The notes below the pieces were generated by a model, which was not told where the DNA came from, did not search any database, and saw nothing but the letters and a program-made list of their open reading frames with translations. 60,901 nucleotides of DNA from a virus, in IMG/VR virus record IMGVR_UViG_3300032313_001529, positions 1 to 60,901 of that record; one strand, 5' to 3'. Position numbers and translations under genes: made by a program. Positions 44,225-59,108 of this stretch are shown piece by piece. Each line of letters starts with the position of its first letter. The stretch's first letter is position 1.

Positions 44225-44545
44225 ATGAAAATTTCAGAAAACAGATTACGTACAATTATTCGAGGTCTTGTAAAAGAAAGTATTTTAGGTTCAAAAAATA
44301 GAAAATTAAATGAAATGTATGAAGATTATGAACAAGGCGAATTTGAAGAAATGTCAGAAGATGATTATATGCCTTCAGATGATTATATGTCAGAAGATGA
44401 TTATATGCCAGAAGATGATTATATGTCAGATGATTATATAACAGATGATTATATGCCAGAAGAAGAATATGTCGAAGATGAATTAAATGATTCTTTTGAA
44501 GATATGCCTGGTGAATATATTACAGACCCTAATTTCACATATTAA
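44225..44545 (+). CDS. Acidic DDYM-repeat protein with capsid-targeting-like N-terminus (106 aa)
   Basis: The N-terminus MKISENRLRTIIRGLVKES (1-19) is an amphipathic helix with Val16-Lys17-Glu18 followed by Ser, one of twelve such tags in this region. Residues 45-80 are tandem copies of a six-residue acidic unit (EDDYMP/SDDYMS). The whole protein is very acidic with many Tyr and Met. A mature product would be an acidic internal scaffold or DNA-mimicking polyanion. Ribosome-binding site AAAGGTT. Its stop shares TTAA with the convergent DinG-like gene. Function unknown. Confidence 0.72.
   Translation: MKISENRLRTIIRGLVKESILGSKNRKLNEMYEDYEQGEFEEMSEDDYMPSDDYMSEDDYMPEDDYMSDDYITDDYMPEEEYVEDELNDSFEDMPGEYITDPNFTY
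44357..44464 (+). repeat. In-frame tandem repeats coding DDYM units
   Basis: Six imperfect copies of a 15- to 18-nt unit, (tca/cca)-g(aa)-gat-gat-tat-atg, code for DDY(M/I) with alternating S/P/E/T spacers. Reading-frame length varies by one or two codons between copies, so it is a slippage-prone but in-frame array. Confidence 0.85.
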
Positions 44546-46167
44546 TTTAAATAAGATTCATGAAAATCTAAAGGAAATAATTCTTTATTTTTATTATAAA
44601 CCCTTTCCCAATCTGAATCTAATATGTATGTTACTGCATAATCATTTTCATTTCTTACTGATCTACCTATTGATTGTATAATCGTTCGAATTGTTTGCGT
44701 ATCATACCACCATTTCCATTTGTTCATCTTCTTTCTAACAACTTTATCACCTAAATATGGAAAAGGTATCTTACAAATAATTTGAAAACGACTTAAATTA
44801 TCTTTTAAATCAACACCTTCAGCCATTGATGGTGATAATAATATTGTAGGTTTATTTGATGTAGTATGTTCTTTAAGTGTTTCATCTCTATTACTCCCAT
44901 GTGCTAATAACAATCTTCCACTTTTAATATTATTCTTAATATATTCTGCTATTTTAACTGAATGTGTATGAATAATACCTTTTTCATTTTTGTGTTCTGC
45001 CATAATATTTTTAATTGCATTTACTAAATTTGGTAATGTTTTATCAATATTATTTGATGACATACTTCCTATTTTAGAAAATATAACTGGTTTATTCTTA
45101 GGATCAAATGGGGATTTTTCTTTAACACAAATTACATCATCACTATTTAAACCTAACGTTTCAATAAAACCCTCATGCGAAACAATTGTTGCAGACATAA
45201 AAATAATTTTTTCTGCATAATTTAATAAATACTCTTGCGCATATTGTGAAATATCAACAGGTTTAAAATTAAATTTGATATATCCTCTTTTTTCAGTTTC
45301 TTCTGTTTCACAAATCCAATTTTCTTTATCATATGAAGATAAAAATTTTTCAATTTTTGAATAATGTCCTTTAATCATTTCAACTTGCTTTAATAAAGTC
45401 AAATGATCTTGTAACTTTCCACCTAAACCAATTTTATCTATTTGCTTTTCCATAAATTCTTTTCTAGACTTTAATGTAGGAAAATAAGTATTTTCAATCC
45501 AATTGAAAATTCTCAATTGTGTATTTAAATCTTCAATATTAGGTAATGTTAATTTTAAAATACGTTCAGCAAAAAATGTTGATACTGATATTTCAATAAA
45601 TCTAGTTAATTCATTTTCTAAATTATGAGCTTCATCAATAATAATTACTTTCTTTTTCGGCAATTTTCTAGAATAATTAATTTCTGTTAGAAAATAACTA
45701 AAATTTGTAATACCTAATTGCCCATCAATAAATGCTTTTTTCTTGTCTTTATATACACAATCAAACTTACATTTATCATATTGCGTATCACCAGCTTTAA
45801 TCTCAGCTTGTGTATCAGAACAGTTATTACCTTTTTTTCTTTGACATTTATAATTAGTAGAAGAATATAATGAAATTAAACCTTTATTACTAAAATCTTT
45901 TTCATACTGATCCTGAAGTATTTTTTGTGTTGTTAAGAAATATGATCCATTTAAAAACAAATCACCATCTTGTACTGGCAAATAACCATTTAAATACCTA
46001 GCTAATGTTACACCAATTGCACTTTTACCAATACCTGTACCTGCCTCAATAATAGCATATTTTTTACCATTTTCAAACCCATTTAAAACCTGATTAATAA
46101 TTCTACTTTGCGATTCACGTGGGTTTGAAAATGGGAAATATGTTTGCCAATTATTATTAATTTCCAT
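44542..46167 (-). CDS. dinG: DinG/XPD-family Fe-S helicase (541 aa)
   Basis: Walker A EAGTGIGKSA (41-50), the FeS-cluster cysteines Cys108, Cys116, Cys133 and Cys137, DEAH box IIIDEAHNLE (175-184), FMSATIVSHEGFIETLG (motif III region), SPSMAEGVDLKDN (motif V region) and TIIQSIGRSVRNENDYA (motif VI region) are all present in the order of superfamily 2 Rad3/XPD/DinG helicases. The four-cysteine spacing (7-16-3) fits a 4Fe-4S domain. The enzyme would unwind DNA 5'-3', including R-loops, during recombination or replication restart. Its 3' end overlaps the stop of the acidic-repeat gene by 4 nt. Confidence 0.9.
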   Translation of the reverse strand: MEINNNWQTYFPFSNPRESQSRIINQVLNGFENGKKYAIIEAGTGIGKSAIGVTLARYLNGYLPVQDGDLFLNGSYFLTTQKILQDQYEKDFSNKGLISLYSSTNYKCQRKKGNNCSDTQAEIKAGDTQYDKCKFDCVYKDKKKAFIDGQLGITNFSYFLTEINYSRKLPKKKVIIIDEAHNLENELTRFIEISVSTFFAERILKLTLPNIEDLNTQLRIFNWIENTYFPTLKSRKEFMEKQIDKIGLGGKLQDHLTLLKQVEMIKGHYSKIEKFLSSYDKENWICETEETEKRGYIKFNFKPVDISQYAQEYLLNYAEKIIFMSATIVSHEGFIETLGLNSDDVICVKEKSPFDPKNKPVIFSKIGSMSSNNIDKTLPNLVNAIKNIMAEHKNEKGIIHTHSVKIAEYIKNNIKSGRLLLAHGSNRDETLKEHTTSNKPTILLSPSMAEGVDLKDNLSRFQIICKIPFPYLGDKVVRKKMNKWKWWYDTQTIRTIIQSIGRSVRNENDYAVTYILDSDWERVYNKNKELFPLDFHESYLN

Positions 46168-46223
46168 TTTTATTTCTTTCTATAAAAAAAGAGAACGTTT
46201 ATTTAATTTAATTATAAAAAAAT

Positions 46224-46247
46224 AAATAAGCTTTTACAAACTTATTT
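46224..46247 (-). terminator. Possible weak intrinsic terminator after 155-aa gene
   Basis: AAATAAG at 46,224-46,230 pairs with CTTATTT at 46,241-46,247. Read on the minus strand, the stem is followed by a T-rich run (ATTTTTTTAT). The 7-bp stem is AT-rich and includes the first base of the stop codon, so it would be weak. Confidence 0.35.
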
Positions 46248-46714
46248 TACCATGAAACACTTTTTGATTTATTAAGTGTATAAATATTTTTTTCTTTTTG
46301 TTCTTTACCTAAATTAGAATCAATTGTTGTTTTTACTTTTAAATAAAACTTTTTAATTTCATTTTCAACATCAGAATCAGCATCTGGTCCACTAGCTGTT
46401 ATCTTATATTTCATCAAATTACTAGGGAATAAATTACTAAATTTTTCATCTATTTTACAAATAGCAAAAGTTTTACCTGTATATGTATCTTGATCAGGAC
46501 CATCAACATGCATATATTGATAATAAAATTCATCATCAGGTGATTGTATTCTCTGATCTTTTAATTTTACATTAACATTTCCACCTGCAATACCAGGTGT
46601 TTGCATATTTTTAGAAAAACCACTTTTACCTGATGCTATTCCATCATTTCTTGGCGTCAATTTTGATTCAATCAATATCATATTTATATAATTTTGTAAA
46701 AGTTTAATATCCAT
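46247..46714 (-). CDS. Capsid-targeting-like tagged hypothetical (155 aa)
   Basis: MDIKLLQNYINMILIESKL starts with an amphipathic helix and a Leu14-Ile15-Glu16 site followed by Ser, matching the tag set. The rest is Gly/Asp/Lys-rich: KSGFSKNMQTPGIAGGNVNV and a beta-rich half (FYYQYMHVDGPDQDTYTGKT; FAICKIDEKFSNLF). No known domain. Predicted to be packaged in the head with the others; function unknown. Confidence 0.65.
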   Translation of the reverse strand: MDIKLLQNYINMILIESKLTPRNDGIASGKSGFSKNMQTPGIAGGNVNVKLKDQRIQSPDDEFYYQYMHVDGPDQDTYTGKTFAICKIDEKFSNLFPSNLMKYKITASGPDADSDVENEIKKFYLKVKTTIDSNLGKEQKEKNIYTLNKSKSVSW

Positions 46715-46752
46715 AAAATTTTCTTCTTTTATATAAATATATTTAAAAATTT

Positions 46753-47169
46753 TTATTGTGGCTTATTATATTGATCTTTTAATTTTAACAATTCTTTTTC
46801 AAAATCAATCTCTTTTTCTTCACCAATATCTACATCGTCAGATAAATTAAATTGGTTATTAGACATTAATTGATTTACAAAATCTTTTTCTTCATCAGGT
46901 GACATTGATGACATATAATCATTAAAACTATTCATTTTTTGTTCTGTGAAATATTTTGCATATAAATCCATCCATTCATCTTGCTGTAATGCATAAGCTA
47001 AATAACTAGTTAAAAACATAGCTTGAGACAACTCAGGAGTAATATCCTCAATATTATCAGACACTTTTGGGAAAAAAACACCTACTTCACATGTTTTACC
47101 ATTAATAATAACACCTGAATCATAATCATTAACTAAAATCTTATCGTTTTCTTTTTCATTTGAAGACAT
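46753..47169 (-). CDS. Hypothetical acidic protein (138 aa)
   Basis: Starts MSSNEKEND and lacks the [LI]xE tag of its neighbours. It contains EVGVFFPKVSDN, LSQAMFLTSYLAYALQQDEW and an acidic helical C-terminus (LSDDVDIGEEKEIDFEKELL). No family recognised. It is divergent from the 206-aa gene at 47,246 with a shared 76-nt AT-rich spacer. Confidence 0.6.
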   Translation of the reverse strand: MSSNEKENDKILVNDYDSGVIINGKTCEVGVFFPKVSDNIEDITPELSQAMFLTSYLAYALQQDEWMDLYAKYFTEQKMNSFNDYMSSMSPDEEKDFVNQLMSNNQFNLSDDVDIGEEKEIDFEKELLKLKDQYNKPQ

Positions 47170-47245
47170 AACTTATCCTTTTTATTTTATAAAGTATATT
47201 TAATATTAAAAAATAAAACTAAACTATACAAAAAGGTATTAAATT

Positions 47246-47866
47246 ATGTCTATTCTTTTATTAGAAAAATCAGAATATTTATTAGATACTCCACTACTAA
47301 TGTTAAATGAAAGTGGAAAAGCTCCTAAATTATCTGAAGGTTTACAATATCATATTAACAATAAACTACCACTATATGATAATATTTATAGAGTTCATTC
47401 AACTGCATATTATGATTTATATACTGAGGCTCGCCAATTATATAAATTAGGTAATTTAATATTAGGTCAATTAGATGAAAGTATGTTAATTGAAACAGAT
47501 ATTGGAGAATATGGTTATTATGAAGGACAAAAAGTACCGTTAGATTCACCTATAGAAGAAAATGATGATGAATTTACAAATATAAATGAAGCTGAATATC
47601 ATGGTAAAAGTGTTAAATTAAACTCACCTCAACGAGGTGGTAATAAAAAATTTTATGTTTATACAAAAAATGATAAAGGTAATATAGTTAAAGTATCTTT
47701 TGGGCAACCAGGTGTTAAAATAGCTAAAAGTGCTGCGGCTCGTAAATCCTTTTTAGCCAGACATAAATGTGATAGTCCCGGACCTAAATGGAAAGCAAAT
47801 TATTGGGCATGTAATATTGGACGTTATAAAAAACAATTAGGTCTAAAATTCCCTGGGAGATGGTAA
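47246..47866 (+). CDS. DUF5872-like phage protein with capsid-targeting-like N-terminus (206 aa)
   Basis: The tag is longer here: residues 1-23 end MLNESGK, with Leu20-Asn21-Glu22 then Ser. The C-terminal third (KIAKSAAARKSFLARHKCDS, PGPKWKANYWACNIGRYKKQ) matches a conserved motif I recall from large marine phages: S-F-x-A-R-H-x-C...K-x-x-x-x-Y-W-x-C. The two cysteines and one histidine may bind metal. The following gene (47,868) starts 1 nt after its stop. The likely location is the virion head; biochemical role unknown. Confidence 0.65.
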   Translation: MSILLLEKSEYLLDTPLLMLNESGKAPKLSEGLQYHINNKLPLYDNIYRVHSTAYYDLYTEARQLYKLGNLILGQLDESMLIETDIGEYGYYEGQKVPLDSPIEENDDEFTNINEAEYHGKSVKLNSPQRGGNKKFYVYTKNDKGNIVKVSFGQPGVKIAKSAAARKSFLARHKCDSPGPKWKANYWACNIGRYKKQLGLKFPGRW

Positions 47867-47867
47867 A

Positions 47868-48146
47868 ATGCCAGTTTATAAAAAAAAACAAGCATGTAAA
47901 CAAGCTGACGGTGATAATGGCACATATACACTTTATCATAAAACTAAAAATGGAAAAGAAGAAAAGGTCGGTTGCGCCACTTCTAAAGAAAATGCAAAAA
48001 ATTATGTAAAAGGCTCTTATGCCGATTGGGGTTGGAAAGATATTGATAGCAAAAAGAAAAAGAAAAATGAAAGTTTATCATTAGAAGAAATGATTTATCA
48101 TCGTTTATTAGAATATTTTGAATCAGGATTATATTTAATTGATTAA
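47868..48146 (+). CDS. Small basic protein with C-terminal tag-like helix (92 aa)
   Basis: MPVYKKKQACKQADGDNG, TYTLYHKTKNGKEEKVGCAT and SKENAKNYVKGSYADWGWKD give a small beta/alpha domain. A Lys run (SKKKKK) precedes LSLEEMIYHRLLEYFESG, which looks like the N-terminal tags of its neighbours but sits at the C-terminus. It has a strong GGGAGATGG leader and is coupled to the upstream gene (1-nt gap). A small nucleic-acid-binding head protein is plausible but unproven. Confidence 0.6.
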   Translation: MPVYKKKQACKQADGDNGTYTLYHKTKNGKEEKVGCATSKENAKNYVKGSYADWGWKDIDSKKKKKNESLSLEEMIYHRLLEYFESGLYLID

Positions 48147-49138
48147 TCATCATCTAAAACAAGATCAGGATTTTCAGTCACACTAAATACTATATTTCCT
48201 CTCCACACATCAAACATAGAATCAATAACTTTTTTCATGTAAGGCACCAATATTTTTGCTTTATTTATAAATTCATCTGGGGTATCATTAATAAAAAATT
48301 TACTAGCAATTTCTAAATCATTACGTTCATCAGAAACGCCTAAATATTTTACAACACGTAAAAAACTAACCAATAACTCATTCGGTAAATCAGATGTTGT
48401 TATTTTAAAATCTAATTGATTTCTTTTGTTTTCTGCTGTAAATGTTAAATAAGGATATAATAAATGTCTATTAACATTAGGAAACAATTTTTCACATAAA
48501 ACTGAATACTCTATATATGCATCACGATATTCATGAAAATCACTGCTTAACATACTTTCTTGATGAAATAATGCATGTGTCAATATCCAAGGTGTTTTTA
48601 AAAACCATTGCACTTTACCTTTACCACTTTTTTGATTTTTAATAGTATCACCTAATAATACAAACAAACAATCATTTTCATCATGATTTTCAATCCAAGT
48701 ATTAATTTGTGAATCCAATAATTTAAATATACCTGAAAAATCACTATTACTTTCGATAAAATAATAATATTGTTCTGGACTTATAATCAATAAACGATCT
48801 GATCTTGGATCATTTTTACCAAACTCTAAATATAAATCACGAAAAAAATTAACAGCTGCATTATCAACAGGTTGCACAATTACATCTACATTTATATCTA
48901 AATTTAAAAAAGTAGACTCCAACTTTTTACCATATTCATATTTTTTATTATGTGTTAAATTCATCAAATCCTCTGTCGATCTTTTATTAAAATTAATAGA
49001 AGATTTAGACGATATAGGATCAATACCATAATCATCCAATATATCATTTGTTATCAAAGGATTTGCCTTATAATTCTTTAAAGGCATCTCATTCAATATT
49101 TTCTTTATTATTTTCTTTATTTTTTCTTCATTCAACAT
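48143..49138 (-). CDS. Capsid-targeting-like tagged hypothetical (331 aa)
   Basis: MLNEEKIKKIIKKILNEMPL carries Leu15-Asn16-Glu17. The body is alpha/beta with RLLIISPEQYYYFIESNSDF and CLFVLLGDTIKNQ and WFLKTPWILTHALFHQES. The THALFH stretch contains two histidines four apart, but no matching distal Glu/Asp/His arrangement of a metallopeptidase is visible. Function unknown. Its stop overlaps that of the 92-aa gene by TTAA. Confidence 0.6.
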   Translation of the reverse strand: MLNEEKIKKIIKKILNEMPLKNYKANPLITNDILDDYGIDPISSKSSINFNKRSTEDLMNLTHNKKYEYGKKLESTFLNLDINVDVIVQPVDNAAVNFFRDLYLEFGKNDPRSDRLLIISPEQYYYFIESNSDFSGIFKLLDSQINTWIENHDENDCLFVLLGDTIKNQKSGKGKVQWFLKTPWILTHALFHQESMLSSDFHEYRDAYIEYSVLCEKLFPNVNRHLLYPYLTFTAENKRNQLDFKITTSDLPNELLVSFLRVVKYLGVSDERNDLEIASKFFINDTPDEFINKAKILVPYMKKVIDSMFDVWRGNIVFSVTENPDLVLDDD

Positions 49139-49162
49139 AAATAACCTATATTAACACATCAT

Positions 49163-49168
49163 TATACT
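49163..49168 (+). promoter_or_regulatory. Possible -10-like element of a leaderless transcript
   Basis: TATACT lies only 4 nt before the ATG of the cupin-like gene, within a 34-nt divergent spacer that has no Shine-Dalgarno sequence for that gene. This would fit a leaderless mRNA. Evidence is a single match in AT-rich DNA. Confidence 0.3.
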
Positions 49169-49172
49169 ATTT

Positions 49173-49457
49173 ATGTTACCATATCAAAATTTATCAGAAT
49201 TAGAAAATAATAATTCATTCAAAATATTCTCCAGAATCATCTATTTTAATCAACAAGATGAAGAATTAAAATGGCATAGGGATAACAACAACAGATCAAT
49301 CCTGGTTAAATCTGGATTAAACTGGCAACTACAATTCGAAAATCAACTACCTATCTATTTAGAAATAAACAAACGCTATAAAATAAATAAAGATGAATGG
49401 CATAGAGTTATAAAAGGAAAAGAAGATCTATTAATTGAAATTACAGAATTTTTTTAA
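49173..49457 (+). CDS. Small cupin-like protein (94 aa)
   Basis: Strand and motif pattern of a cupin barrel: LKWHRDNNNRSILVKSGLNW (residues 31-50) with His33, WQLQFENQLPIYLEINKRYK, INKDEWHRVIKG (His77) and LLIEITEF. The two His regions would face each other across the barrel. No Glu in the usual third metal position is certain, so metal binding is not assured. Only 34 nt separate it from the divergent start, with no clear ribosome-binding site. It shares a TTAA stop overlap with the convergent 104-aa gene. Confidence 0.6.
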   Translation: MLPYQNLSELENNNSFKIFSRIIYFNQQDEELKWHRDNNNRSILVKSGLNWQLQFENQLPIYLEINKRYKINKDEWHRVIKGKEDLLIEITEFF

Positions 49458-49768
49458 ATCTCCTCTTTTTTAAAACATATATTATCTTCCAATAATATAT
49501 CTAACTCTTTATTCTTCAATAAAAATAAAAAATATAATGTTACCATATCTTTTTCAAGACCTTCAATTTTCTCAACACACATATTTTCATTCATATAACA
49601 AATATTATTAATAACTTTATTTTTATTCTTCTCAATATTTATTCTTAATAATGCATCAGCTGTAATTAATTCAAACTCTTTTTTACAATCTTTATATTTC
49701 TCAATACCACCTATTTTATATATCAATACACTCCATAACAAAAAACATATAAAATAAATAAACTTCAT
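49454..49768 (-). CDS. Membrane-anchored or secreted Cys-containing protein (104 aa)
   Basis: The N-terminus MKFIYFICFLLWSVLIYKIG is a hydrophobic span without a basic tail; residues after it are charged. Five Cys (8, 28, 57, 64, 97) occur, two in a close pair (CYMNENMC). No lipobox. A helical C-terminus (VTLYFLFLLKNKELDILLED) could be a second span. A spanin- or lysis-related role is possible but there is no holin/endolysin next to it, so function is open. Ribosome-binding site AGAGGTG. Confidence 0.55.
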   Translation of the reverse strand: MKFIYFICFLLWSVLIYKIGGIEKYKDCKKEFELITADALLRINIEKNKNKVINNICYMNENMCVEKIEGLEKDMVTLYFLFLLKNKELDILLEDNICFKKEEI

Positions 49769-49790
49769 AAATCACCTCTTTATTTTAATT

Positions 49791-49839
49791 ATAATCTAAT
49801 CTTTGTCCACGTATTAGATTAGATTATGTTGTTTTTTTT
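49791..49839 (+). terminator. Hairpin plus T-run on plus strand
   Basis: ATAATCTAATC (49,791-49,801) and GATTAGATTAT (49,817-49,827) form an 11-bp perfect stem with a 15-nt loop, followed by GTTGT and a run of T's to 49,840. This is intrinsic-terminator-like for plus-strand readthrough of the cupin gene, which otherwise would run antisense into the genes beyond. Confidence 0.4.
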
Positions 49840-50867
49840 TAGATTTGATCTGTATCTACAACAGAAGCATCATCTACTTCTACTTCATTATCTTCTCCAT
49901 TTACTATTCTTTGAACTCCATATAATACTTTTTCAATTGCATCTTTACCTGGAGTTTGATTTTTCATAAAATGATTTAATACACCTTTAATATCACCACT
50001 TTTTTCTAAGCCTTTAACTAAATCAATATTTTTTTCAATTCCTGATGAGGCTAATTCATCAATTCCATCAAAAATATCATTAACAAATTTAGCATCTTCC
50101 TCACCAAATAAAAATGTTGCAGCCCCTGTTAACATATTTTTAATCCAAGATATAGATGAACTTGTCGACCATTTTTCATTTATAAAATCTTCTGATTGCA
50201 TTTTCATATCTTGCGTATATATTTTTTGTTTTTCAAAATTATCTAATTTATTTTCAATAATAAAGTTTTGAAAGCTACTAGTATTAATAATACCTAAAAT
50301 AGAATTATCATCTGGCATTTCAACAGTAGCTTCTCCAATAGTAATTTGATTAAAAGAAATATCATCAATGTTTTCTTTTATAAAATTAATAAAATTTTTA
50401 CTATTTAAAGATATAATTAATAATGGTTCCCATGATATAAAAATTTTATTTAATTTATTTTTTAATGTTGTATTAAGTTTATTAAATTCTTTAACATTAT
50501 TTATTTTTACAAGTTTTTCAGACCATTCTTTTAATATATTTTTTATTTTTTCTTCGTCTATTTCTTTTGCTTTATCTTGAATTTGTTTTACAACACCTAT
50601 ACTTTTATAAAAATTATCATCAAAATCTACTCCCCTGTCAAATAAATTTAATACAAAAGATAAAATTATATTATTGTTTTTAACTATTTCTTTTTGATTA
50701 TTTAAATTATTTTCATCAGGTATTTCTTTTAATCCTGCACCTAAATTAGAATCAATGTTAATATTACTAACATCACCTTCATCCTCTTTTAAAAGATATT
50801 TTATACTTTCATTTATTACTTTTTTTAAATGATTATTATTTTTTATTAACACTTTTATTACTTTCAT
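49839..50867 (-). CDS. Capsid-targeting-like tagged hypothetical (342 aa)
   Basis: The N-terminus (VIKVLIKNNNHLKKVINES) ends in Ile18-Asn19-Glu20 followed by Ser; the next segment IKYLLKEDE is acidic. The body is helical and acidic, with a hydrophobic helix (WIKNMLTGAATFLFGEED) about residue 246 and an acidic tail (NGEDNEVEVDDASVVDTDQI). No domain recognised. The internal hydrophobic helix could interact with membrane during injection; speculative. Confidence 0.6.
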   Translation of the reverse strand: MKVIKVLIKNNNHLKKVINESIKYLLKEDEGDVSNINIDSNLGAGLKEIPDENNLNNQKEIVKNNNIILSFVLNLFDRGVDFDDNFYKSIGVVKQIQDKAKEIDEEKIKNILKEWSEKLVKINNVKEFNKLNTTLKNKLNKIFISWEPLLIISLNSKNFINFIKENIDDISFNQITIGEATVEMPDDNSILGIINTSSFQNFIIENKLDNFEKQKIYTQDMKMQSEDFINEKWSTSSSISWIKNMLTGAATFLFGEEDAKFVNDIFDGIDELASSGIEKNIDLVKGLEKSGDIKGVLNHFMKNQTPGKDAIEKVLYGVQRIVNGEDNEVEVDDASVVDTDQI

Positions 50868-50957
50868 GATACATTTTTATCATTAAATATATCATTTAAT
50901 TTAATTTTTTTATTATATTAAAATGTTTGTTTTTATAATTTTTATATATATCAATTA

Positions 50958-52802
50958 TTACATCTTTTGATTACTAGAACCTATATTTTTTCTATCGTAA
51001 GTCTTTTGATTACTAGAACCTATATTTTTTCTATCGTAAGTCTTTTGATTACTAGAACCTATATTTTTTCCATCGTAAGTCTTTTGATTACTAGAACCTA
51101 TATTTTTTTGATTCTGTATATTACTTTTTGTACTATTACTTTCTTTATTATTAATATTCATTATTTGTATAGATTTAGATATTTTATTATTAATTAACAT
51201 TATATTTCGTGATGAAAAGTTATTTAAATCCAATACGCCAGAATTATCAGAATATACATACATACGATCTGATTTTATTATACTATCGATAAAACTTTTT
51301 AATGTTTTATTACCACCCATACTTTTAATATCGTCGCTATTAAAAACAAAATAATTAAATACTCTAGGTATAATATTACTCCAAATAATAAAAGAAACCC
51401 AATAATAAAAAGTAAATGGTGTGCCATTATCCCATATATCTGTAATATATCCTAATCTATTAATAAATTTTCCAGCACCTTGACTGAAAGCGCCTGATAC
51501 ATAATCCTTTGCAGGTTTCATTTCATCAAAAATTTCTCCACCACGTGTAACACTACTTTTACCTGATAGATGTGCACGATGTGGTTTATATGCTATTTTT
51601 TTATAATTTTTATGTAACTGATTTAAATCATTAACAATCTCTTGTAACGGAGTACCACCGTTATTTAATTTATTTTTTAATTTATTTAATGCAGTTACAA
51701 AAGTTGATTCAATTGCTGCTTTATCACTTTGTGTACTAAATGTATTTAGTGTATTATCAATACCCTTAATTAATTGCTGTTTAAATGAAGCAACATCAGT
51801 AGCTGCATCACTAATTAAAACACCTGGTGATTTAATTTTTAATAAATTTTGTCCTTTAGTTACAAAATTTAATGAAGCTTCAAACCAGGCACGATTAGCA
51901 GCCCTTATAATATCAGCTGATACATATCTTGATAACCATTTTCCTATAATACCTGTAAAACGAGAAGATGTGCCTGTAAAAAATTCAAACAATGTACCTT
52001 TCAGAAATATATATGTCTTTTTTTTCAAACTTTCTAATAATAAATTACCTTTATATAATAATATTTTTGATTCAAAAATATTGTCTGAATCAATTTTTTT
52101 ATTTAATTTATCACTATCAATAATACTTCCAATTTTTTTACCTATATCTTTAGCATCATCACTAATATCAAATTTTAAATCATAATGATTTAAAATTTTG
52201 TTTGCCAATAAATTAGTAATTTCATTCTTTTTATCTTTGCCTAAAACAAAAAATAATTCAGGTTTTCCGTCTAATATAGCTAGATTATTTTCATCTTTTA
52301 TTTTAAAACATATAATACATTTAAAATCTGTACTTTCTTTAAATTTATCGAATAAATCATCCATTTGTGGTAGATTATTGATAGATTTTCCCTTGTTATT
52401 AAAAATATAAGAAATTGCATTTTTAATAACAAACCCAAAATTTTGTTCCATATTATTATATAAAGGAATAGCGAAAATATTTTTTTTATTGTTTAAAGAT
52501 GTATAAAATTCAGAATCTATAAATTTTATACTACCTTTTTGATTATTTACTTTATAAAAATTTTTAAAAAATAAATTGCTATTACTTTCAAATTTATTAT
52601 ATTTTTTTTGTAATTCGTTTTTTAAATTTTTTATTGTATTAAAAAAAGATTCTACACAAATATTATTTATATTATTTGATATTTTTTTATATAAACCATT
52701 ATAATCTATAGCCCCGCTTGAATTATTTTCATTTAATTCTTTTATTATATTTTTATATAAAAATTCACGTATTAATTTTCTTTCCAATTCTTCTTTAAGC
52801 AT
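50958..52802 (-). CDS. Large tagged virion-type protein with C-terminal 13-residue repeats (614 aa)
   Basis: MLKEELERKLIREFLYKNII gives Ile11-Arg12-Glu13 then Phe; a second [I]xE (Ile20-Lys21-Glu22) follows. The central part has LFEFFTGTSSRFTGIIGKWL and SADIIRAANRAWFEASLNF, then a hydrophobic segment (FTFYYWVSFIIWSNIIPRVF). The C-terminus is almost four tandem copies of KNIGSSNQKTYDR. A large internal protein or injected pore-type protein would fit, but no homologue is recognised. Ribosome-binding site AAAAAGG. Confidence 0.6.
   Translation of the reverse strand: MLKEELERKLIREFLYKNIIKELNENNSSGAIDYNGLYKKISNNINNICVESFFNTIKNLKNELQKKYNKFESNSNLFFKNFYKVNNQKGSIKFIDSEFYTSLNNKKNIFAIPLYNNMEQNFGFVIKNAISYIFNNKGKSINNLPQMDDLFDKFKESTDFKCIICFKIKDENNLAILDGKPELFFVLGKDKKNEITNLLANKILNHYDLKFDISDDAKDIGKKIGSIIDSDKLNKKIDSDNIFESKILLYKGNLLLESLKKKTYIFLKGTLFEFFTGTSSRFTGIIGKWLSRYVSADIIRAANRAWFEASLNFVTKGQNLLKIKSPGVLISDAATDVASFKQQLIKGIDNTLNTFSTQSDKAAIESTFVTALNKLKNKLNNGGTPLQEIVNDLNQLHKNYKKIAYKPHRAHLSGKSSVTRGGEIFDEMKPAKDYVSGAFSQGAGKFINRLGYITDIWDNGTPFTFYYWVSFIIWSNIIPRVFNYFVFNSDDIKSMGGNKTLKSFIDSIIKSDRMYVYSDNSGVLDLNNFSSRNIMLINNKISKSIQIMNINNKESNSTKSNIQNQKNIGSSNQKTYDGKNIGSSNQKTYDRKNIGSSNQKTYDRKNIGSSNQKM
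50964..51109 (-). repeat. 39-bp tandem repeat, about 3.7 copies
   Basis: Copies start at 50,964, 51,003 and 51,042, with a partial fourth to 51,109. Copy 3 differs by one base (Asp-Gly instead of Asp-Arg in the protein). The repeat unit is a whole number of codons, so the reading frame is preserved and it codes for the last about 50 residues of the 614-aa protein. No spacers, so not a CRISPR array. Confidence 0.95.
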
Positions 52803-52829
52803 AAATAAAAACCTTTTTATAATAAATAT

Positions 52830-54110
52830 TTAAGGTTTTGCTTTTTTATTATAAAATTTAAGATATCCTGGATATTTACTGTCAAAAACATTTTTAATTA
52901 ATTGTCTATTATAATTTTTCTGATTGCTATACACAAAAAAGCCTTTTATATCTTTGTTTGGATCATTAAATATATTTATTTGTGGTTTATTTTTACGTGT
53001 AAATGTTATGTTTACATTTGCATTATGTAATTTAGATAATGTTGAAAGAATAATTTGGTCTAATAACATTTGATTATTATTATTAAAACTTACATTTTTA
53101 GTCCAATTAATTCTTCCATTATTTATATAATTTAATCTTGATATCATTTTATCTCTATATTCAGGCTTAATATTTACATCATTTATTTTATTATTTAATT
53201 TTGAATTCATTGCAATTATATAAGCATCTTTAAAACTCATTAAATCTTTTTTATTAATATAAATTTTTTGTACACCATTTATTAGTTTTCTTGTGTCATT
53301 TTTAAAAGCTGTTTTATGCGGAATTGCACCTAAAAATGTATAAGAATTATTATAACTATTGAAATAAACAAGGAAATATACATCTATTCTATTATTATTT
53401 ATGGTTTGTTTTGAATCATCTATTATTAAATTATTATATATAGAATCAGTCGTTTTAATATCTATAAAACATCCATTATAATTTAAATCTCCACTATCTT
53501 GTTGATTTAAAGTGCCTATTTCTTTACGTATTTTGAAACAATGATTAAAATTTAAACCCAACATAATAGCAACAGCTATTTCTCCCATTAAACCCATTAC
53601 ATTATAATAACTATTTTTTTCAATTTCTTCTTTGTTTTGCTGCAAACTATTAATATAATTTTCTTTTATATTATTCATACTAATATTTAAATAATTATTA
53701 ATCATATTAATATGTCTTTTAAAAAAATTTTTTAAATAATCTAGAAATAAATTATATTTAACAATACTGAACCTCATATTGCAAGGTATACAAAAATCAT
53801 CTACATAAGATAAATACATAAAAGGATTTTTTGTATTTTCATATTCATCTATTTTTTTTTCACATTTATTATCATAAATATTTTTAGAAAAACAATCTAA
53901 TAAATATTTAATATCTTCTTCTATTGTTTTTAATAACTTAGAAAAAGTTTCATCTTTATGCAAATTTATTAAATCTTTTCTATTATTCCAATGATTTCTA
54001 ACTTCAATTACTTTTTTAACATAATTACTTAAATCATCACTATTCTGAGAATTAAAAATTATTTTGTCATTTTTATCTAAATTAAACATATTAAACCCGT
54101 TATAAAACAA
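52830..54110 (-). CDS. Putative PD-(D/E)XK nuclease-fold protein (426 aa)
   Basis: Residues about 165-290 show the core of a restriction-endonuclease fold: YYNVMGLMGEIAVAIMLG with Glu177, SGDLNYNGCFIDIKTTDSIY with Asp208, Asp217 and Lys219 (D-x-K), then RIDVYFLVYFNSY and YTFLGAIPHKTAF as strand and cap. The long helical N-terminal part (LCFSK, VIEVRNHWNNRKDLI) and basic C-terminal part (LYSNQKNYNRQLIKNVF-like) are unassigned. Expected to cleave DNA or be a structural relative of type II enzymes or VSR/XbaI-type proteins. No tag. It is divergent from the kinase-like gene at 54,195. Confidence 0.6.
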   Translation of the reverse strand: MFYNGFNMFNLDKNDKIIFNSQNSDDLSNYVKKVIEVRNHWNNRKDLINLHKDETFSKLLKTIEEDIKYLLDCFSKNIYDNKCEKKIDEYENTKNPFMYLSYVDDFCIPCNMRFSIVKYNLFLDYLKNFFKRHINMINNYLNISMNNIKENYINSLQQNKEEIEKNSYYNVMGLMGEIAVAIMLGLNFNHCFKIRKEIGTLNQQDSGDLNYNGCFIDIKTTDSIYNNLIIDDSKQTINNNRIDVYFLVYFNSYNNSYTFLGAIPHKTAFKNDTRKLINGVQKIYINKKDLMSFKDAYIIAMNSKLNNKINDVNIKPEYRDKMISRLNYINNGRINWTKNVSFNNNNQMLLDQIILSTLSKLHNANVNITFTRKNKPQINIFNDPNKDIKGFFVYSNQKNYNRQLIKNVFDSKYPGYLKFYNKKAKP

Positions 54111-54161
54111 TTTTATATTATAATATTAATTATAAATTATTACAAAAATAAATTTTTTAAT

Positions 54162-54171
54162 ATATAAAATA
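54162..54171 (+). promoter_or_regulatory. ATATAAAATA element upstream of kinase-like gene 1
   Basis: Ten bases, identical to those before kinase-like genes 2 and 3, ending 23 nt before the start codon. The near-constant spacing across three genes supports a shared promoter or leader element more than chance in AT-rich DNA would. Confidence 0.45.
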
Positions 54172-54194
54172 ATAGTAGCAAATAGGTTTAAAAT

Positions 54195-55226
54195 ATGTTA
54201 ATATATCAATCAAAAAATATACTAAAAAAATATATTAATCTAATAATTAATGAATCTCGTACATTAGACGAATTAGAAAAAATATACGCAGATGATATAT
54301 TAATAAAAAATGCAGATATTCAATATACTGATGCATGGACAGAACTTAATTCATTAATAGAAATCCTAAGTAATTATGATTTAAATTACGATTCAGATGA
54401 AAAAGATATTAAAATTAATCAAATTATAAACGTATTAAATACATTAAACTATAAAATAATAGGAAAAGGTCAATCAAGACTAGTATATTCAAAAGATGAT
54501 GTTAATTTTATAATTAAAATTTCAAAAAAAATAAAAGAAACAGACATTTATGAAAATGAATACGATGAACAAGATCTAAAATATTCAGAATCAAATGAAT
54601 TAGAAATAAAAACATATCAAAATTATGGTAAATATTTACCTAAACAAGATATTTTTCCAAAAATATATGATTATGATAGGATGGATTATACATGGTTAAT
54701 AGCTGAAAAAGTTTATTCTTTCAATACACATTCAGATATTGAAAAAATATTTGAACCATTATTAACGCAAGTTGAAAAAATTAAAAAAATTATTACGCAA
54801 GATATTACTTTACAAAACGATATTACTTTTCAAAAATTTTTAAATTTAAATACAACTAAAATAACGCCTAATATTTTATTAATTTGCATAATTCAATTAA
54901 TTACTCAATTTTCAAACTTTTATTTACAAAAAGATGAAAAACATTTATTTATAGAATCAATAGTAGACAACTTAATCATCAGATATTTTGATATAGAATC
55001 TAACTACAACGCTGCGCAATATATTAAAAATAAACTCAAATCAACTTTGATAAAATATAATATAGAACCTACACAAGACATTATATATATTAACAATTTT
55101 TTAAAAAACGGAACGATAAATGATTTACAATTTTTTAATATTGGATATAGAAATTCGTCTATAAATAAAAAACAGCCATGGAAAAACTTTGTTATCTTAG
55201 ACACAGGCGAAGGATATATCGAATAA
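54195..55226 (+). CDS. Kinase-like protein 1, tagged, with variant catalytic loop (343 aa)
   Basis: The tag ends INE (18-20) followed by Ser. G-loop IGKGQSRLVYSK (89-100), Lys108 in IIKIS, and NELEIKTYQNYG with a candidate alphaC Glu (about 137) follow the kinase order. The catalytic-loop equivalent is DLQFFNIGY (Asp310, Asn315), with Gln instead of His and Phe instead of Gly, and the DFG equivalent is DTG (Asp336-Thr-Gly). It ends 5 residues later. The middle 150 residues are helical. It is the most diverged of three paralogues and may be a pseudokinase. It ends 3 nt before a convergent small gene. Confidence 0.65.
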   Translation: MLIYQSKNILKKYINLIINESRTLDELEKIYADDILIKNADIQYTDAWTELNSLIEILSNYDLNYDSDEKDIKINQIINVLNTLNYKIIGKGQSRLVYSKDDVNFIIKISKKIKETDIYENEYDEQDLKYSESNELEIKTYQNYGKYLPKQDIFPKIYDYDRMDYTWLIAEKVYSFNTHSDIEKIFEPLLTQVEKIKKIITQDITLQNDITFQKFLNLNTTKITPNILLICIIQLITQFSNFYLQKDEKHLFIESIVDNLIIRYFDIESNYNAAQYIKNKLKSTLIKYNIEPTQDIIYINNFLKNGTINDLQFFNIGYRNSSINKKQPWKNFVILDTGEGYIE

Positions 55227-55228
55227 AT

Positions 55229-55477
55229 TTAATTTTTAATGTAAAAAAAATCAGACCAACACCAATTTAATTCACCATCAACTAATATTAAATATTTCCA
55301 CCCCCACCTATTCAAACCAAATCTTAAACCAATATATATATCATTTTCATAATCATAAATATGATAACTTTTAAAACTAAACCAACACCATTTTCTATCA
55401 ATAATTATCCCATATTTTTGATTATTAATATCATCTTTCAATGTAATTAATTTACCTACTTTACTCTTAAAAAACAT
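55229..55477 (-). CDS. Small Trp-rich hypothetical protein (82 aa)
   Basis: A small beta-rich protein with seven Trp (KWCWFSFKSYHIYDY; NRWGWKYLILVDGELNWCWS). No tag, no membrane span. It lies between kinase-like genes 1 and 2 on the opposite strand. It is absent between genes 2 and 3. No family recognised; the Trp/Tyr spacing suggests an SH3- or Tudor-like barrel but that is a guess. Confidence 0.55.
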   Translation of the reverse strand: MFFKSKVGKLITLKDDINNQKYGIIIDRKWCWFSFKSYHIYDYENDIYIGLRFGLNRWGWKYLILVDGELNWCWSDFFYIKN

Positions 55478-55502
55478 TTTTTTATCAACTTTAAAATATA
55501 TA

Positions 55503-55512
55503 ATATAAAATA
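55503..55512 (+). promoter_or_regulatory. ATATAAAATA element upstream of kinase-like gene 2
   Basis: Identical ten bases, ending 22 nt before the start codon; see the matching elements at 54,162 and 56,641. Confidence 0.45.
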
Positions 55513-55534
55513 TTATAAAAGTATAAAGGTAAAA

Positions 55535-56632
55535 ATGTTAAAAAATAATATCATAAAAAATTATTTAAAAATTTTATTTGAAACTACAAATCTAGATGAT
55601 GAATTATCTGATTTAGAAAAAAAATACGAATTCGATATCAATCAAAAAAATAATGATTTAAAAAAAAAAATAAAAAACGAAATGTATTCAACAGAAGGTT
55701 GGGGATTATTAAATAACACAATAGAACAACTTGAAAAAATAAACAAAATCGATTATGGAGAAAATCTAAAATATAAATTAGATGATATCGAAGATCTTAT
55801 AACTACAGAATTAGGTTTTGTTTCAATTGGAAGAGGTGCTTATAGACATGTTTATGGTAGAAAAAACACGCCTTTCATCATTAAATTAGAACAAATAAAT
55901 TCTTTTTCTAAAAAAAGTCTAGGTACAAACGAAAACGAATATAATACTTATTTCAATTACGGATCAACATTTCAACCACGTAATGACTTATTCACAAAAA
56001 TATATGGATATGACAAAAAAAACGGTCTATGGATCGTATTTGAAAAAGTTAATACATTTAAAAATTCTTCAAGCGATATACTTTTAAAAATGTTTAAACA
56101 ATTTTTCTCTTTTTTAGAAAAAATTTATTCTTTTCTTGAAAATGAACCTGCTTTTTATAATGTACCTGGTTATCCTGAAGATGATTCTAATCTTTTTCAA
56201 CCGACAAATGAATTTGAAGATTTTATTAATAACCCAAAAGATCCACAAGATTTATTCTTTTATTTTATTGATTTTGCAAAAGCAGTTGCATGGAACTGTT
56301 ATAATCAATCACACACAGACATCGCAGAAGCATTCAAAAAAACATTAATAGATTTTACAATACAAACATTCACAGGTAAAGCATCTTATCATTATTTACC
56401 ACATTTTAGAAAAGATAATCCACTTGAATATGATTTATTAGTCACAAAACTAAATGAAAATTTTCCGGATCTAAAACCTACACCTGATGTCGCATATATA
56501 AGCAACTTTTTAAAAAATAAAACAATAGAGGATCTTCATTTTGGTAATATAGGTTACAGAGATATGAAAAATAACCCCACAGAACCATGGAAAAATCTAG
56601 TAATTTTAGACTTCGGTGAATTTGCATTTTAA
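55535..56632 (+). CDS. Kinase-like protein 2, tagged, canonical catalytic residues (365 aa)
   Basis: The tag helix ends ILFE (13-16) then Thr. G-loop SIGRGAYRHVYG (97-108), Lys117 in FIIKLE, TNENEYNTYFNYG with candidate alphaC Glu133/Glu135, hinge-like LWIVFEKV (165-172), catalytic loop DLHFGNIGY (Asp333, His335, Asn338) and LDFGEF (Asp359-Phe-Gly). The chain stops four residues after the Gly, so activation segment, APE and F-helix are absent. A helical region separates hinge and catalytic loop. Small-molecule or protein phosphotransfer is plausible. Ribosome-binding site AAAGGT. Confidence 0.72.
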   Translation: MLKNNIIKNYLKILFETTNLDDELSDLEKKYEFDINQKNNDLKKKIKNEMYSTEGWGLLNNTIEQLEKINKIDYGENLKYKLDDIEDLITTELGFVSIGRGAYRHVYGRKNTPFIIKLEQINSFSKKSLGTNENEYNTYFNYGSTFQPRNDLFTKIYGYDKKNGLWIVFEKVNTFKNSSSDILLKMFKQFFSFLEKIYSFLENEPAFYNVPGYPEDDSNLFQPTNEFEDFINNPKDPQDLFFYFIDFAKAVAWNCYNQSHTDIAEAFKKTLIDFTIQTFTGKASYHYLPHFRKDNPLEYDLLVTKLNENFPDLKPTPDVAYISNFLKNKTIEDLHFGNIGYRDMKNNPTEPWKNLVILDFGEFAF

Positions 56633-56640
56633 AAATTCAA

Positions 56641-56650
56641 ATATATAAAA
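56641..56650 (+). promoter_or_regulatory. ATATAAAATA element upstream of kinase-like gene 3
   Basis: Identical ten bases, ending 25 nt before the start codon, immediately after the stop of gene 2. Each kinase-like gene thus seems to have its own leader element. Confidence 0.45.
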
Positions 56651-56675
56651 TATTATATAATACAAAGAGATCTAC

Positions 56676-57845
56676 ATGCTAACAAAAAATAAACTCAAAA
56701 ATTATTTAAAAAAGTTAATTGAATCCATAGACTCAGAAGCACTCTCAAATCTTGAACAAAAATATCAAACTGATGTTATAGAAAAAGATCTTTATTCAAA
56801 AGAACAACAAATAAAAGAAAAAAACTCCGGAAAAGGTTGGCAATTATTAGACGATATCATTAAAACACTATCAGAATTAGATGATCCAAAAATACATCCA
56901 CAAAATTTACGATACAAATACGAAATAATAACTGAAATCTTAACAACACAATACAACTTAAAACTAATAGGTGAAGGACAATTCAGAAATGTTTATAGCA
57001 AAACTGGTATACCATTCGTTGTTAAAGTTGAAAAATTTCAATTTGATGATGATGCATATGAAGAAGATGAAGATTATATTTTATCATATGGCGCCAATAA
57101 AGTTGAATATAACACTTATTTAAATTATGGCACAGACACAAGACCAAGAACTGATCTTTTTTCAAAAATTTATGCATACGACAAAAAAAATGATATGTGG
57201 ATAATCACAGAAAAGGTTACAACATTCTCTGATGACGGCACAAACAATGATGTACTTTTAAAAATTTTTCAACCTATCATTACACTTTTATCAAAAGTAA
57301 TTAAATTTATAAAAACAAACAGAAATTTTCTAAATTTCCCTTATTATCCTTTTTACAACAGAACTTTTAATATAGATAAAAACATATTTTTTAGATCAAA
57401 TAATGTAATAGAAGATATTTTTGAACAAGCAAATAATAACGTATATGTAGATGCTGAATTAGCACAATCTATATTCGATAAATGCTTCGATTTTATTGAA
57501 ATAGTAACTGTAGAAATAGAAAGAACAAACGATCTAATAGCAGCATTTCAACTTGCAATCATTCAATGGCTATTATCAAACTTTAGTATAATAGGAAATG
57601 ATTACGACGTAGTTAAAATGTCACAACCTAAAAAATTAAAATTCTTAATATCAATATTTCAAAAAAATTTCCCAGATCTAAAACCCACACCTGATGTCGC
57701 TTACTTCGCAAACTTCCTAAGAAATAAAGCAATCAGCGATATACACTTCTACAATATCGGATATCGCGATATGAAAAATAATCCTACAGAACCATGGAAA
57801 AATCTAATCATCATAGACTTCGGCGAATTCGGAACAAATACATAA
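56676..57845 (+). CDS. Kinase-like protein 3, tagged, canonical catalytic residues (389 aa)
   Basis: The tag ends LIE (14-16) then Ser. G-loop LIGEGQFRNVYSK (97-109), Lys117 in FVVKVEK, KVEYNTYLNYG with candidate alphaC Glu, MWIITEKV as hinge, catalytic loop DIHFYNIGY (Asp355, Asn360) and IDFGEFG (Asp381-Phe-Gly). It aligns with protein 2 over most of its length, with longer insertions around residues 120-135 and 210-260, and shares the block YRDMKNNPTEPWKNL between loop and DFG. The end is again truncated after DFG. It ends 11 nt before the convergent DUF5824-like gene. Confidence 0.72.
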   Translation: MLTKNKLKNYLKKLIESIDSEALSNLEQKYQTDVIEKDLYSKEQQIKEKNSGKGWQLLDDIIKTLSELDDPKIHPQNLRYKYEIITEILTTQYNLKLIGEGQFRNVYSKTGIPFVVKVEKFQFDDDAYEEDEDYILSYGANKVEYNTYLNYGTDTRPRTDLFSKIYAYDKKNDMWIITEKVTTFSDDGTNNDVLLKIFQPIITLLSKVIKFIKTNRNFLNFPYYPFYNRTFNIDKNIFFRSNNVIEDIFEQANNNVYVDAELAQSIFDKCFDFIEIVTVEIERTNDLIAAFQLAIIQWLLSNFSIIGNDYDVVKMSQPKKLKFLISIFQKNFPDLKPTPDVAYFANFLRNKAISDIHFYNIGYRDMKNNPTEPWKNLIIIDFGEFGTNT

Positions 57846-57856
57846 TTAATCAATCT

Positions 57857-58198
57857 TCACTTCTTCGCTTTCTTCCACAAATCATCATCAGCTTTCCTAG
57901 CACCACCCTTCCCTGATAAAAACGAATTCACACGACCCATAGCCCAAGCATGCTGCGGAGTCCCCTGCCTATGACCCGTCGCCCACGCAGCCAACCCCCT
58001 ACGATACACAGCTTTCACAACACCCAACGACACCTTATGCTTCTTAGCTTTCGCAGCCAATGTCTCATTTGTCTTCGCTGAAAATCCCTCCATCAACACA
58101 TTCTCAACAATCATCTCCCAATTCTCATTAATATCTTCATACTCATAATACAACGCCTCAGAAATTAATCTATCCAACTCTTCTCTCAATAACTTCAT
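57857..58198 (-). CDS. DUF5824-like phage protein with capsid-targeting-like N-terminus (113 aa)
   Basis: MKLLREELDRLISEALYY ends the tag with Ile12-Ser13-Glu14 then Ala. Residues about 60-108 (KVSLGVVKAVYRRGLAAWAT, GHRQGTPQHAWAMGRVNSFL, SGKGGARKADDDLW) match the motif I know as DUF5824: V-x-[RW]-R-G-[LM]-A-A-W-x-[TS]-G-H-R-x-G...Q-x-x-W-A-x-x-R-V-N-S-F. Found in many phages, often in head-associated loci; biochemical role undescribed. It is clearly richer in G+C than most of the window, with strong C bias on the plus strand. Confidence 0.75.
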   Translation of the reverse strand: MKLLREELDRLISEALYYEYEDINENWEMIVENVLMEGFSAKTNETLAAKAKKHKVSLGVVKAVYRRGLAAWATGHRQGTPQHAWAMGRVNSFLSGKGGARKADDDLWKKAKK

Positions 58199-58446
58199 TT
58201 CTTTTTTCCTTTCGCTTGATCATACTCTTTATCTGCATCCCAATACTCATAACAACTCGCAGGCCGACCCTCAGGATCAGCACACTTATTAATCTCTCGC
58301 GCCATAGAACGAATCGACTTCTTTGTACCTCGCCCCTTCTTTCCACTCTTATACGCACGCTTCAAATTATCCACTGTCACACGCTTCTTCTCAACCAATA
58401 ACATCAATTGAATATACTCATACAACAACTCTTCAGTCATCAACAT
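58195..58446 (-). CDS. Tagged small Cys-containing phage protein (83 aa)
   Basis: I start it at 58,446 because AGAGG lies 8 nt upstream and the residues from there (MLMTEELLYEYIQLMLLVEK) form the tag with Leu17-Val18-Glu19. The longer in-frame start at 58,488 would add 14 residues with no ribosome-binding support. The body has KKRVTVDNLKRAYKSGKKGR, SIRSMAREINKCADPEGRPA and SCYEYWDADKEYDQAKGKK, a small basic helical domain with Cys45 and Cys55 (approximate) that recurs in phages of this type. It overlaps the 113-aa gene by 4 nt. Confidence 0.65.
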   Translation of the reverse strand: MLMTEELLYEYIQLMLLVEKKRVTVDNLKRAYKSGKKGRGTKKSIRSMAREINKCADPEGRPASCYEYWDADKEYDQAKGKKK

Positions 58447-58520
58447 TTCATACACCTCTTTTACATATATACTATATATCACCCCCACCTACAAGAGGCT
58501 CCCACATCACACCAAAAAAC

Positions 58521-59108
58521 TTATCTCATCTTTGATTCAAACTCATCTATCATCTCACGCTGCTTAATAACATTACGAGACATATCCCTATAATTACTCT
58601 TCGCAACCTCAATCTCTCTCTTATACACTTCACACTCTTCCTCATCAACACAATTTCTCAACTTCTTCAAACTATCCTGCACTTTCCAACGAGCCCCATC
58701 TCTCATAAACACATAATGATTATACACCTGCTTCGCATAAATCAGTTTATATCCAATAGAACCATAATCAATATTCTTCGGATCATACTCACCAGCAGGC
58801 ATATTATCTTTTCCCCACCACTTCTTCTTCTCAATACCCGGATAATTATCCTTATTCCACCTCATATTAGGCTCAAGATGAATATCATTATATAACCCAG
58901 CTCTCTCCCTCTCTCTCTCACTAAACGCCTCACCCTCCAACTCTTCATCATCAATCTCATCTAAATCAGGATCATACTCATACTCCTCTTTCCTATATGG
59001 CACCCAACGATTCTGCGTACCATCAATCACCCACTCCCCCTTCTTCTCACTCCCATCATACCACGATTCCCTAATCAATCTCCTCAATTCACTCTCTCTC
59101 ATCAACAT
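58521..59108 (-). CDS. Capsid-targeting-like tagged hypothetical (195 aa)
   Basis: MLMRESELRRLIRESWYDG is the clearest tag (Ile12-Arg13-Glu14 then Ser). The body is Trp/Tyr/Asp-rich (KKGEWVIDGTQNRWVPYRKE; DPDLDEIDDEELEGEAFSER) and ends in a charged coiled coil (VQDSLKKLRNCVDEEECEVY then KREIEVAKSNYRDM). No known domain. Weak ribosome-binding site. An internal head protein is the most economical guess. Confidence 0.65.
   Translation of the reverse strand: MLMRESELRRLIRESWYDGSEKKGEWVIDGTQNRWVPYRKEEYEYDPDLDEIDDEELEGEAFSERERERAGLYNDIHLEPNMRWNKDNYPGIEKKKWWGKDNMPAGEYDPKNIDYGSIGYKLIYAKQVYNHYVFMRDGARWKVQDSLKKLRNCVDEEECEVYKREIEVAKSNYRDMSRNVIKQREMIDEFESKMR

Follow-up and report, generated by a model that had tools for sequence, protein, structure and literature searches.

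The set of proteins that travels in the phage head and enters the host ahead of phage gene expression has been established in only few cultured phages. The concept of a capsid-targeting sequence (CTS) comes from T4 (1996), and in T-even relatives variable bodies are known to follow a conserved CTS. This last point is stated briefly in PMC9026906, where IPIII genetics in T4 assign residues 4 and 7 to targeting and residues 8 and 10 to processing. Here, we analyzed a 60.9-kb stretch of DNA (25% GC; IMG/VR record IMGVR_UViG_3300032313_001529, hereafter the window) from a T4-like phage, which carries gp6-, gp25- and PhoH-like genes together with many fibre genes and for which we found no match at the DNA level among cultured phages. 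Its positions 44-59 kb form one block of small and medium genes on mixed strands. An earlier note on this DNA had proposed that twelve proteins of the block share an N-terminal helix ending in [LIV]-x-E as a candidate capsid-targeting tag. Our results indicate that this shared N-terminus is very probably a T4-type capsid-targeting propeptide that has been hugely expanded and loads dozens of accessory proteins into heads.

The simple [LIV]-x-E motif is common: at residues 10-24 it was found in 40% of the window proteins vs 18-31% for later segments, and counting it was rejected as too weak a test. We therefore built a profile of the whole helix, with 15 columns centred on the Glu and trained on the N-termini of five other phages, the window being held out. 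With a cut-off of at least 8 bits, this profile retrieved eight of the 55 window proteins (44225, 46247, 48143, 49839, 50958, 54195, 57857 and 58521; proteins are named by coordinate), all of which belong to the earlier twelve. The chance that all eight would fall among 12 of 55 proteins is about 4e-7 (hypergeometric). No hit was obtained for 178 pseudo-N-termini starting at internal Met, and 0.1 hits were expected from shuffled N-termini. None of the other window proteins, including those of the baseplate, fibre and helicase/PhoH genes, reached even 4 bits. The whole helix, and not the bare motif, is the specific feature. Two more proteins, 55535 and 56676, present low profile scores and were accepted as tagged only through their sequence homology to 54195; the N-termini of 47246 and 58195 are poor, weak tags. 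With these corrections, the earlier observation is confirmed in part. As the earlier note had described, a Glu at residue 13-22 with L, I or V two residues before it can be read in 12/12 N-termini (for 58195 only if an internal ATG replaces the GTG start), and the next residue is S, T or A in nine of them. The features are listed below, with a slash at the predicted cut; outside annotated records, the genes and their starts were called in this analysis.

44225-44278, + strand: tag MKISENRLRTIIRGLVKE/ of the 106-aa acidic protein 44225-44545; 15.2 bits with the profile from other phages.
46667-46714, - strand: tag MDIKLLQNYINMILIE/ of the 155-aa protein 46247-46714; 8.5 bits.
47246-47311, + strand: weak candidate tag ending LLMLNE22/ of the 206-aa protein 47246-47866; missed by the profile, canonical in the homologue G006_3404.
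47588-47590, + strand: internal predicted cleavage Glu, INE115/AEYHGK, ahead of the basic C-terminal domain of 47246; based on the boundaries of relatives.
49088-49138, - strand: tag MLNEEKIKKIIKKILNE/ of the 331-aa protein 48143-49138; 13.3 bits.
50808-50867, - strand: tag MKVIKVLIKNNNHLKKVINE/ of the 342-aa protein 49839-50867; 15.2 bits.
52764-52802, - strand: tag MLKEELERKLIRE/ of the 614-aa protein 50958-52802, with a second possible site at IKE22/; 15.9 bits.
54195-54254, + strand: tag MLIYQSKNILKKYINLIINE/ of kinase-like paralogue 1 (54195-55226); 18.1 bits, kinase motifs.
55535-55582, + strand: putative tag MLKNNIIKNYLKILFE/ of kinase-like paralogue 2 (55535-56632); accepted through paralogy to 54195, its profile score being low.
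56676-56723, + strand: putative tag MLTKNKLKNYLKKLIE/ of kinase-like paralogue 3 (56676-57845); accepted, like 55535, through paralogy to 54195 in spite of a low profile score.
58157-58198, - strand: tag MKLLREELDRLISE/ of the 113-aa DUF5824 protein 57857-58198; 20.4 bits.
58390-58446, - strand: weak candidate tag MLMTEELLYEYIQLMLLVE/ of an 83-aa basic protein, with ATG at 58446 and a longer frame from GTG at 58488; read from the sequence, low profile score.
59067-59108, - strand: tag MLMRESELRRLIRE/ of the 195-aa protein 58521-59108; 15.7 bits.

The head genes of this phage were found on a second record, IMGVR_UViG_3300033571_020726 (G017, 80.7 kb). Its gp6 is 100% identical to the window gp6 over 612 residues, its gene order follows that of the window across window positions 858 to ~39,200, and it extends beyond the other end of the window, where it reaches the head cluster; by these sequence matches, G017 is a longer contig of the window's own phage. 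It encodes a Peptidase S77 of the T4-gp21 type (E=1e-28), the prohead protease that had been expected outside the window, and a Gp23 capsid protein (E=2e-65). G017 was also held out of the profile, and its hits above 6 bits were the S77 protease itself (68752), three small genes of the head cluster (69763, 70395 and 72338) and two related large proteins directly past the capsid gene (76756 and 78283). No tail, baseplate, terminase or replication gene of G017 was matched. An ADP-ribosyltransferase fold considered for the 76756/78283 family was dropped, the structure model being useless (pLDDT 36).

In related phages, the S77 protease presents [LI]-x-E or a close variant immediately before its conserved domain. 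The same signature marks the propeptide boundary of the major capsid protein (MCP), which, aligned by eye with T4 E65, reads QLLRE/S, QVLRE/Q, QILRE/Q, QVLRE/A, QVLKE/S and QVLRE/S in six phages. The profile was built from N-terminal tags and never trained on MCPs at the propeptide boundary, and of eight related MCPs, each with 25-43 Glu, it ranked the boundary Glu first in seven and second in the other. These sequences agree with a capsid protein that would be cut at the same motif as the tag. A separate observation concerns LR756508.1, where the S77 prohead protease (L275:16480-18204) is one 574-aa open frame with a ~350-aa insert directly after the catalytic motif GELDHPD; the insert starts with Cys, ends in TGN/S and looks like an intein.

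The tag consensus is basic, amphipathic and MKITKRQLRRIIKE-like. Its four most informative columns are the Glu at position 0 (3.44 bits) and positions -6 (2.07), -2 (1.98) and -3 (1.85), values to be read with the starting pattern in mind, which already included these positions. Residues 4, 7, 8 and 10 of T4 IPIII correspond to the same four positions relative to the Glu. Because the starting pattern contained the conserved positions, selection by residues 1-5 alone provides a cleaner test: in the 64 N-termini chosen in this way, residue 8 was L or I in 49, residue 11 was I, L or V in 58, residue 12 was I or V in 49 and residue 14 was E in 37. When residue 14 was left unconstrained, it was E in 52 of 70. 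The sequence form MKITKRQLRRIIKE occurs in about 100 IMG/VR stretches; of 50,697 phage records in GenBank, a single one was matched, weakly, by a query with the full tag peptide, and the letters of MKITKRQLRRIIKE were not found in the literature searched.

Relatives of this phage carry the tag well above chance. The number of proteins reaching at least 8 bits was 32 in G005 (vs 1.6-2.7 expected), 19 in G014 (1.1), 13 in G006 (0.6-1.9), 10 in G020 (0.5-0.8) and 8 in G003 (0.2-1.4). LR756508, a 484-kb uncultured huge phage, presented 43 (2.2-2.6), and eight phages together presented 159. The cultured Flavobacterium phage immuto (GenBank MW353175; host Flavobacterium LMO8) had six hits vs about 1.3 by chance, its tagged genes including 81525, 102294, 111184 and 113188, with MKKSQLRQIIKE/ALDAS as an example of a predicted site; we found no virion proteomics on this phage in the literature searched. 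G041 (116.7 kb; L345-L350), from the same sample as G017 and of similar GC, had 13 tagged proteins vs 1.2 expected. Cargo paralogues are shared and no core gene is, and its content is complementary (tail sheath, tail tube and replication genes, with further paralogues of the window kinase-like family); it is probably another piece of the same phage genome. The window phage is an uncultured giant T4-like phage. Among the 272 open reading frames of T4, gp24, IpII and IpIII, which are annotated as gp21-cleaved or internal head proteins, were among the best profile scores; the top score was a false positive, an intron-borne fragment of I-TevIII. phiKZ, which has no S77 match, gave no hit, KVP40 gave one and P-SSM2 four, and the profile revealed no expanded tag set in RM378, Mel-JY01 or KVP40. 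The pattern was also seen in three bins of metagenome-assembled genomes (L221-L227: Methylococcaceae TMED69, Halobacteriovorax SP2999 and Ca. Peribacter UBA6535), which look like binned phage contigs.

Of the 97 families present in at least three genomes, 85 were never tagged and 12 had any tagged member, and this count, like the G017 scan, indicates that the profile does not occur equally often at other N-termini of the genome. The consistently tagged families are two small ones that adjoin the protease (6/6 and 4/5 genomes); the remaining tagged families are accessory. An HD hydrolase was seen with and without the tag (G005_204729 vs G014_225103), as expected for a modular address. The body common to G006_3404 and its immuto homologue starts at the tag Glu. 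The basic domain of 47246 offers a sequence-based natural experiment that supports cleavage: in phages with S77 it begins behind an acidic, LxE-like boundary, LTE/AEYQGK (C48C1), LEE/AEFQGK (HTVC008M) or MLE/AEYRGR (G006), whereas in phages without S77 (Kolga, HTVC202P and CRP-901) the gene starts at this very boundary with MA-x-Y-x-G-[KR]. The C48C1 homologue of 47246 has a T4-like N-terminus, MKKFKQYIDE/. Further tag copies are internal or C-terminal in some proteins, although wrongly called starts may account for a few of the internal copies. C-terminal processing is also seen in T4 Alt (PMC9026906).

The bodies behind the tags gave almost nothing in Pfam and PHROGs for the window besides DUF5824, phrog_7595 and a weak phrog_4301. 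IPI, IPII, IPIII and Alt were not among the Pfam and PHROG families matched by tagged proteins. Protein 57857 carries DUF5824 from residue 50 (PF19141, E=2.5e-11), with a second possible site, LME/GFSAK, a little ahead of the domain. The bodies are not all unrelated, as had been claimed, because 54195, 55535 and 56676 are mutual paralogues (35-42% identity). These three and their relatives in G041 keep a set of motifs, conserved in six paralogues: the loop GxGxxRxVY, a Lys, the stretch D-[LIF]-[HQ]-x-x-N-[IV]-G and a motif resembling D-[FTY]-G. The AlphaFold model of the family is poor (pLDDT 54); in Foldseek, this poor model of 55535 gave a top 50 made up nearly entirely of kinase or aminoglycoside-phosphotransferase folds, none significant. 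No relatives were found by a pattern scan of IMG/VR, nor by a sequence search of PDB. These motifs and folds suggest a kinase-like family, and we do not call its members kinases. The absence of the tag from baseplate, fibre and enzyme genes holds for the baseplate, fibre and helicase/PhoH genes, but the tagged set probably includes kinase-like enzymes. A second expanded family, large and mostly tagged (L054:16756-19596 and 52778, 54462, 75532 and 71486 of G041), has two members directly downstream of the capsid gene; it presents the motif TPxGxYxYP ... IHxNEPxQ and has no Pfam family and no usable structure model. Two other genes of the window deserve mention. The 417-aa protein at 59431-60684 (- strand) combines a von Willebrand A domain (PF00092, E=1.2e-11) with a membrane segment at its N-terminus and resembles bacterial TadG-type pilus proteins, which is odd for a phage. 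The gene at 41304-41564 (+), which lies on the strand opposite to its neighbours, encodes 86 aa with a domain of the sigma-70 region 4 type (PF04545, E=1.5e-9); its product is a possible late-gene regulator.

From these sequences, we infer that the tag targets proteins to the prohead and is cleaved off, and that the cargo is ejected and acts as effectors. While new phage is made, the basic amphipathic helix of 13-22 residues would attach to the core of the prohead by its hydrophobic residues at -6 and -3 of the Glu, and the shell would close round the loaded core. The S77 prohead protease, with an LxE site near its own N-terminus, would then cut after [LIV]-x-E, as at the capsid propeptide boundary, so that the cut bodies would lie free beside the DNA in the head until their ejection into the next host cell. 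The address would be borne by conserved small core proteins beside the protease and by a changing accessory cargo, which in the window would comprise the three kinase-like paralogues, the DUF5824 protein and small basic and acidic proteins.

It is also conceivable that the helix is a docking peptide for another phage or host partner (membrane, RNA polymerase or replisome), the Glu being part of an interface and not a cleavage site. A basic amphipathic helix would suit membrane or protein docking too, but this would leave unexplained the presence of the same signature at the capsid propeptide boundary, the tag on the protease and head-core genes, a conserved spacing equal to that of T4 and the coincidence of domain starts with the Glu; we consider it unlikely. 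The possibility that the tags are a by-product of recent gene duplication, or of a regulatory or recombination DNA element at gene starts, and not a selected peptide, is suggested by the many small tagged genes in tandem in G005 and G014 and by the paralogy of some bodies. Tag residues, however, share 42-58% amino-acid identity among the tagged genes of one genome (five genomes), while codon identity is near codon-usage expectation in four of the five (0.44-0.49 vs 0.35-0.44). Some duplication is indicated in G005, because its codon identity is 0.58 vs 0.41 expected. A DNA element would need to be shared upstream, where the DNA of tagged genes is unrelated (26-33% identity). Moreover, 56 aligned tagged proteins are near-invariant at M1 and the Glu only, and the 14 Pfam families found on tagged proteins are represented by one protein each. 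These results largely exclude duplication or a DNA element as the explanation.

A third alternative, which we judge very unlikely as a general account, keeps the cleavage and changes the fate: the tagged proteins would be core or scaffold, broken down and expelled by the time that DNA is packaged, as happens to T4 gp67, gp68 and most of gp22, and not delivered cargo. The two small tagged families adjoining the protease and the proteins with several LxE sites fit such a role, but the variable gene content and the large bodies that have one site and an enzyme domain (poly(A) polymerase, HD, zeta-type kinase, kinase-like) resemble the T4 internal proteins and Alt. Cargo and scaffold fates probably coexist. 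Several observations weigh against an expanded capsid-targeting propeptide. The profile does not rank T4's own gp23 site, and specificity therefore differs from that of T4. In some families, homology to untagged members continues through the tag region. S77 was found in 15 of 20 tagged records, including all those of at least 142 kb and the long relatives, but most very large contigs may be T4-like regardless, so that this co-occurrence is weak evidence and was rejected as proof. No T4 late promoter TATAAATA was found upstream of tagged genes, a result that is uninformative. The capsid-targeting propeptide nevertheless remains our preferred explanation: it is supported by the S77 protease and Gp23 on the phage's own contig, the tagged head genes beside the protease, the MCP boundary signature and the positional match to IPIII.

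If this propeptide is general in the clade, one short cleavable helix would serve these uncultured giant T4-like phages as an export address for dozens of interchangeable enzymes per head (kinase-like proteins, nucleotidyltransferase, zeta-type kinase, HD hydrolase and DUF families), and the tag would mark a pre-loaded, injected proteome. We regard this broader reading as reasonably likely. A tag that can be read from sequence would allow the proteins that many uncultured giant phages probably inject to be listed; it gives testable functions to many orphan genes and offers new peptides for loading proteins into heads.

The closest described system is the T4 CTS of IPI-III and Alt, which is removed by gp21 and is likewise a short N-terminal propeptide, about 7-20 residues long in gp21 substrates, ending in [L/I]-x-E, with hydrophobic residues at -6 and -3, an S77 protease and unrelated bodies (PMC9026906). 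T4 has about four internal proteins with MKTYQEFIAE-like tags, whereas here 8-43 proteins per record carry basic MKITKRQLRRIIKE-like tags, with extra internal and C-terminal tag copies and other cargo. The giant phages phiKZ and SPN3US package many protease-processed proteins in the head (PMC5694885), as is predicted here; their propeptides are mostly far longer (about 80-130 residues), with an AxE or SQE site and an S80 protease in place of S77. Polyvalent proteins are similarly predicted to be packaged and injected as early effectors (PMC5512222), but they are giant, multidomain proteins recognised by their domains, without a common cleavable N-terminal tag. Novelty here lies in the clade, the consensus, the scale and the cargo, whereas the CTS idea itself was already known from T4.

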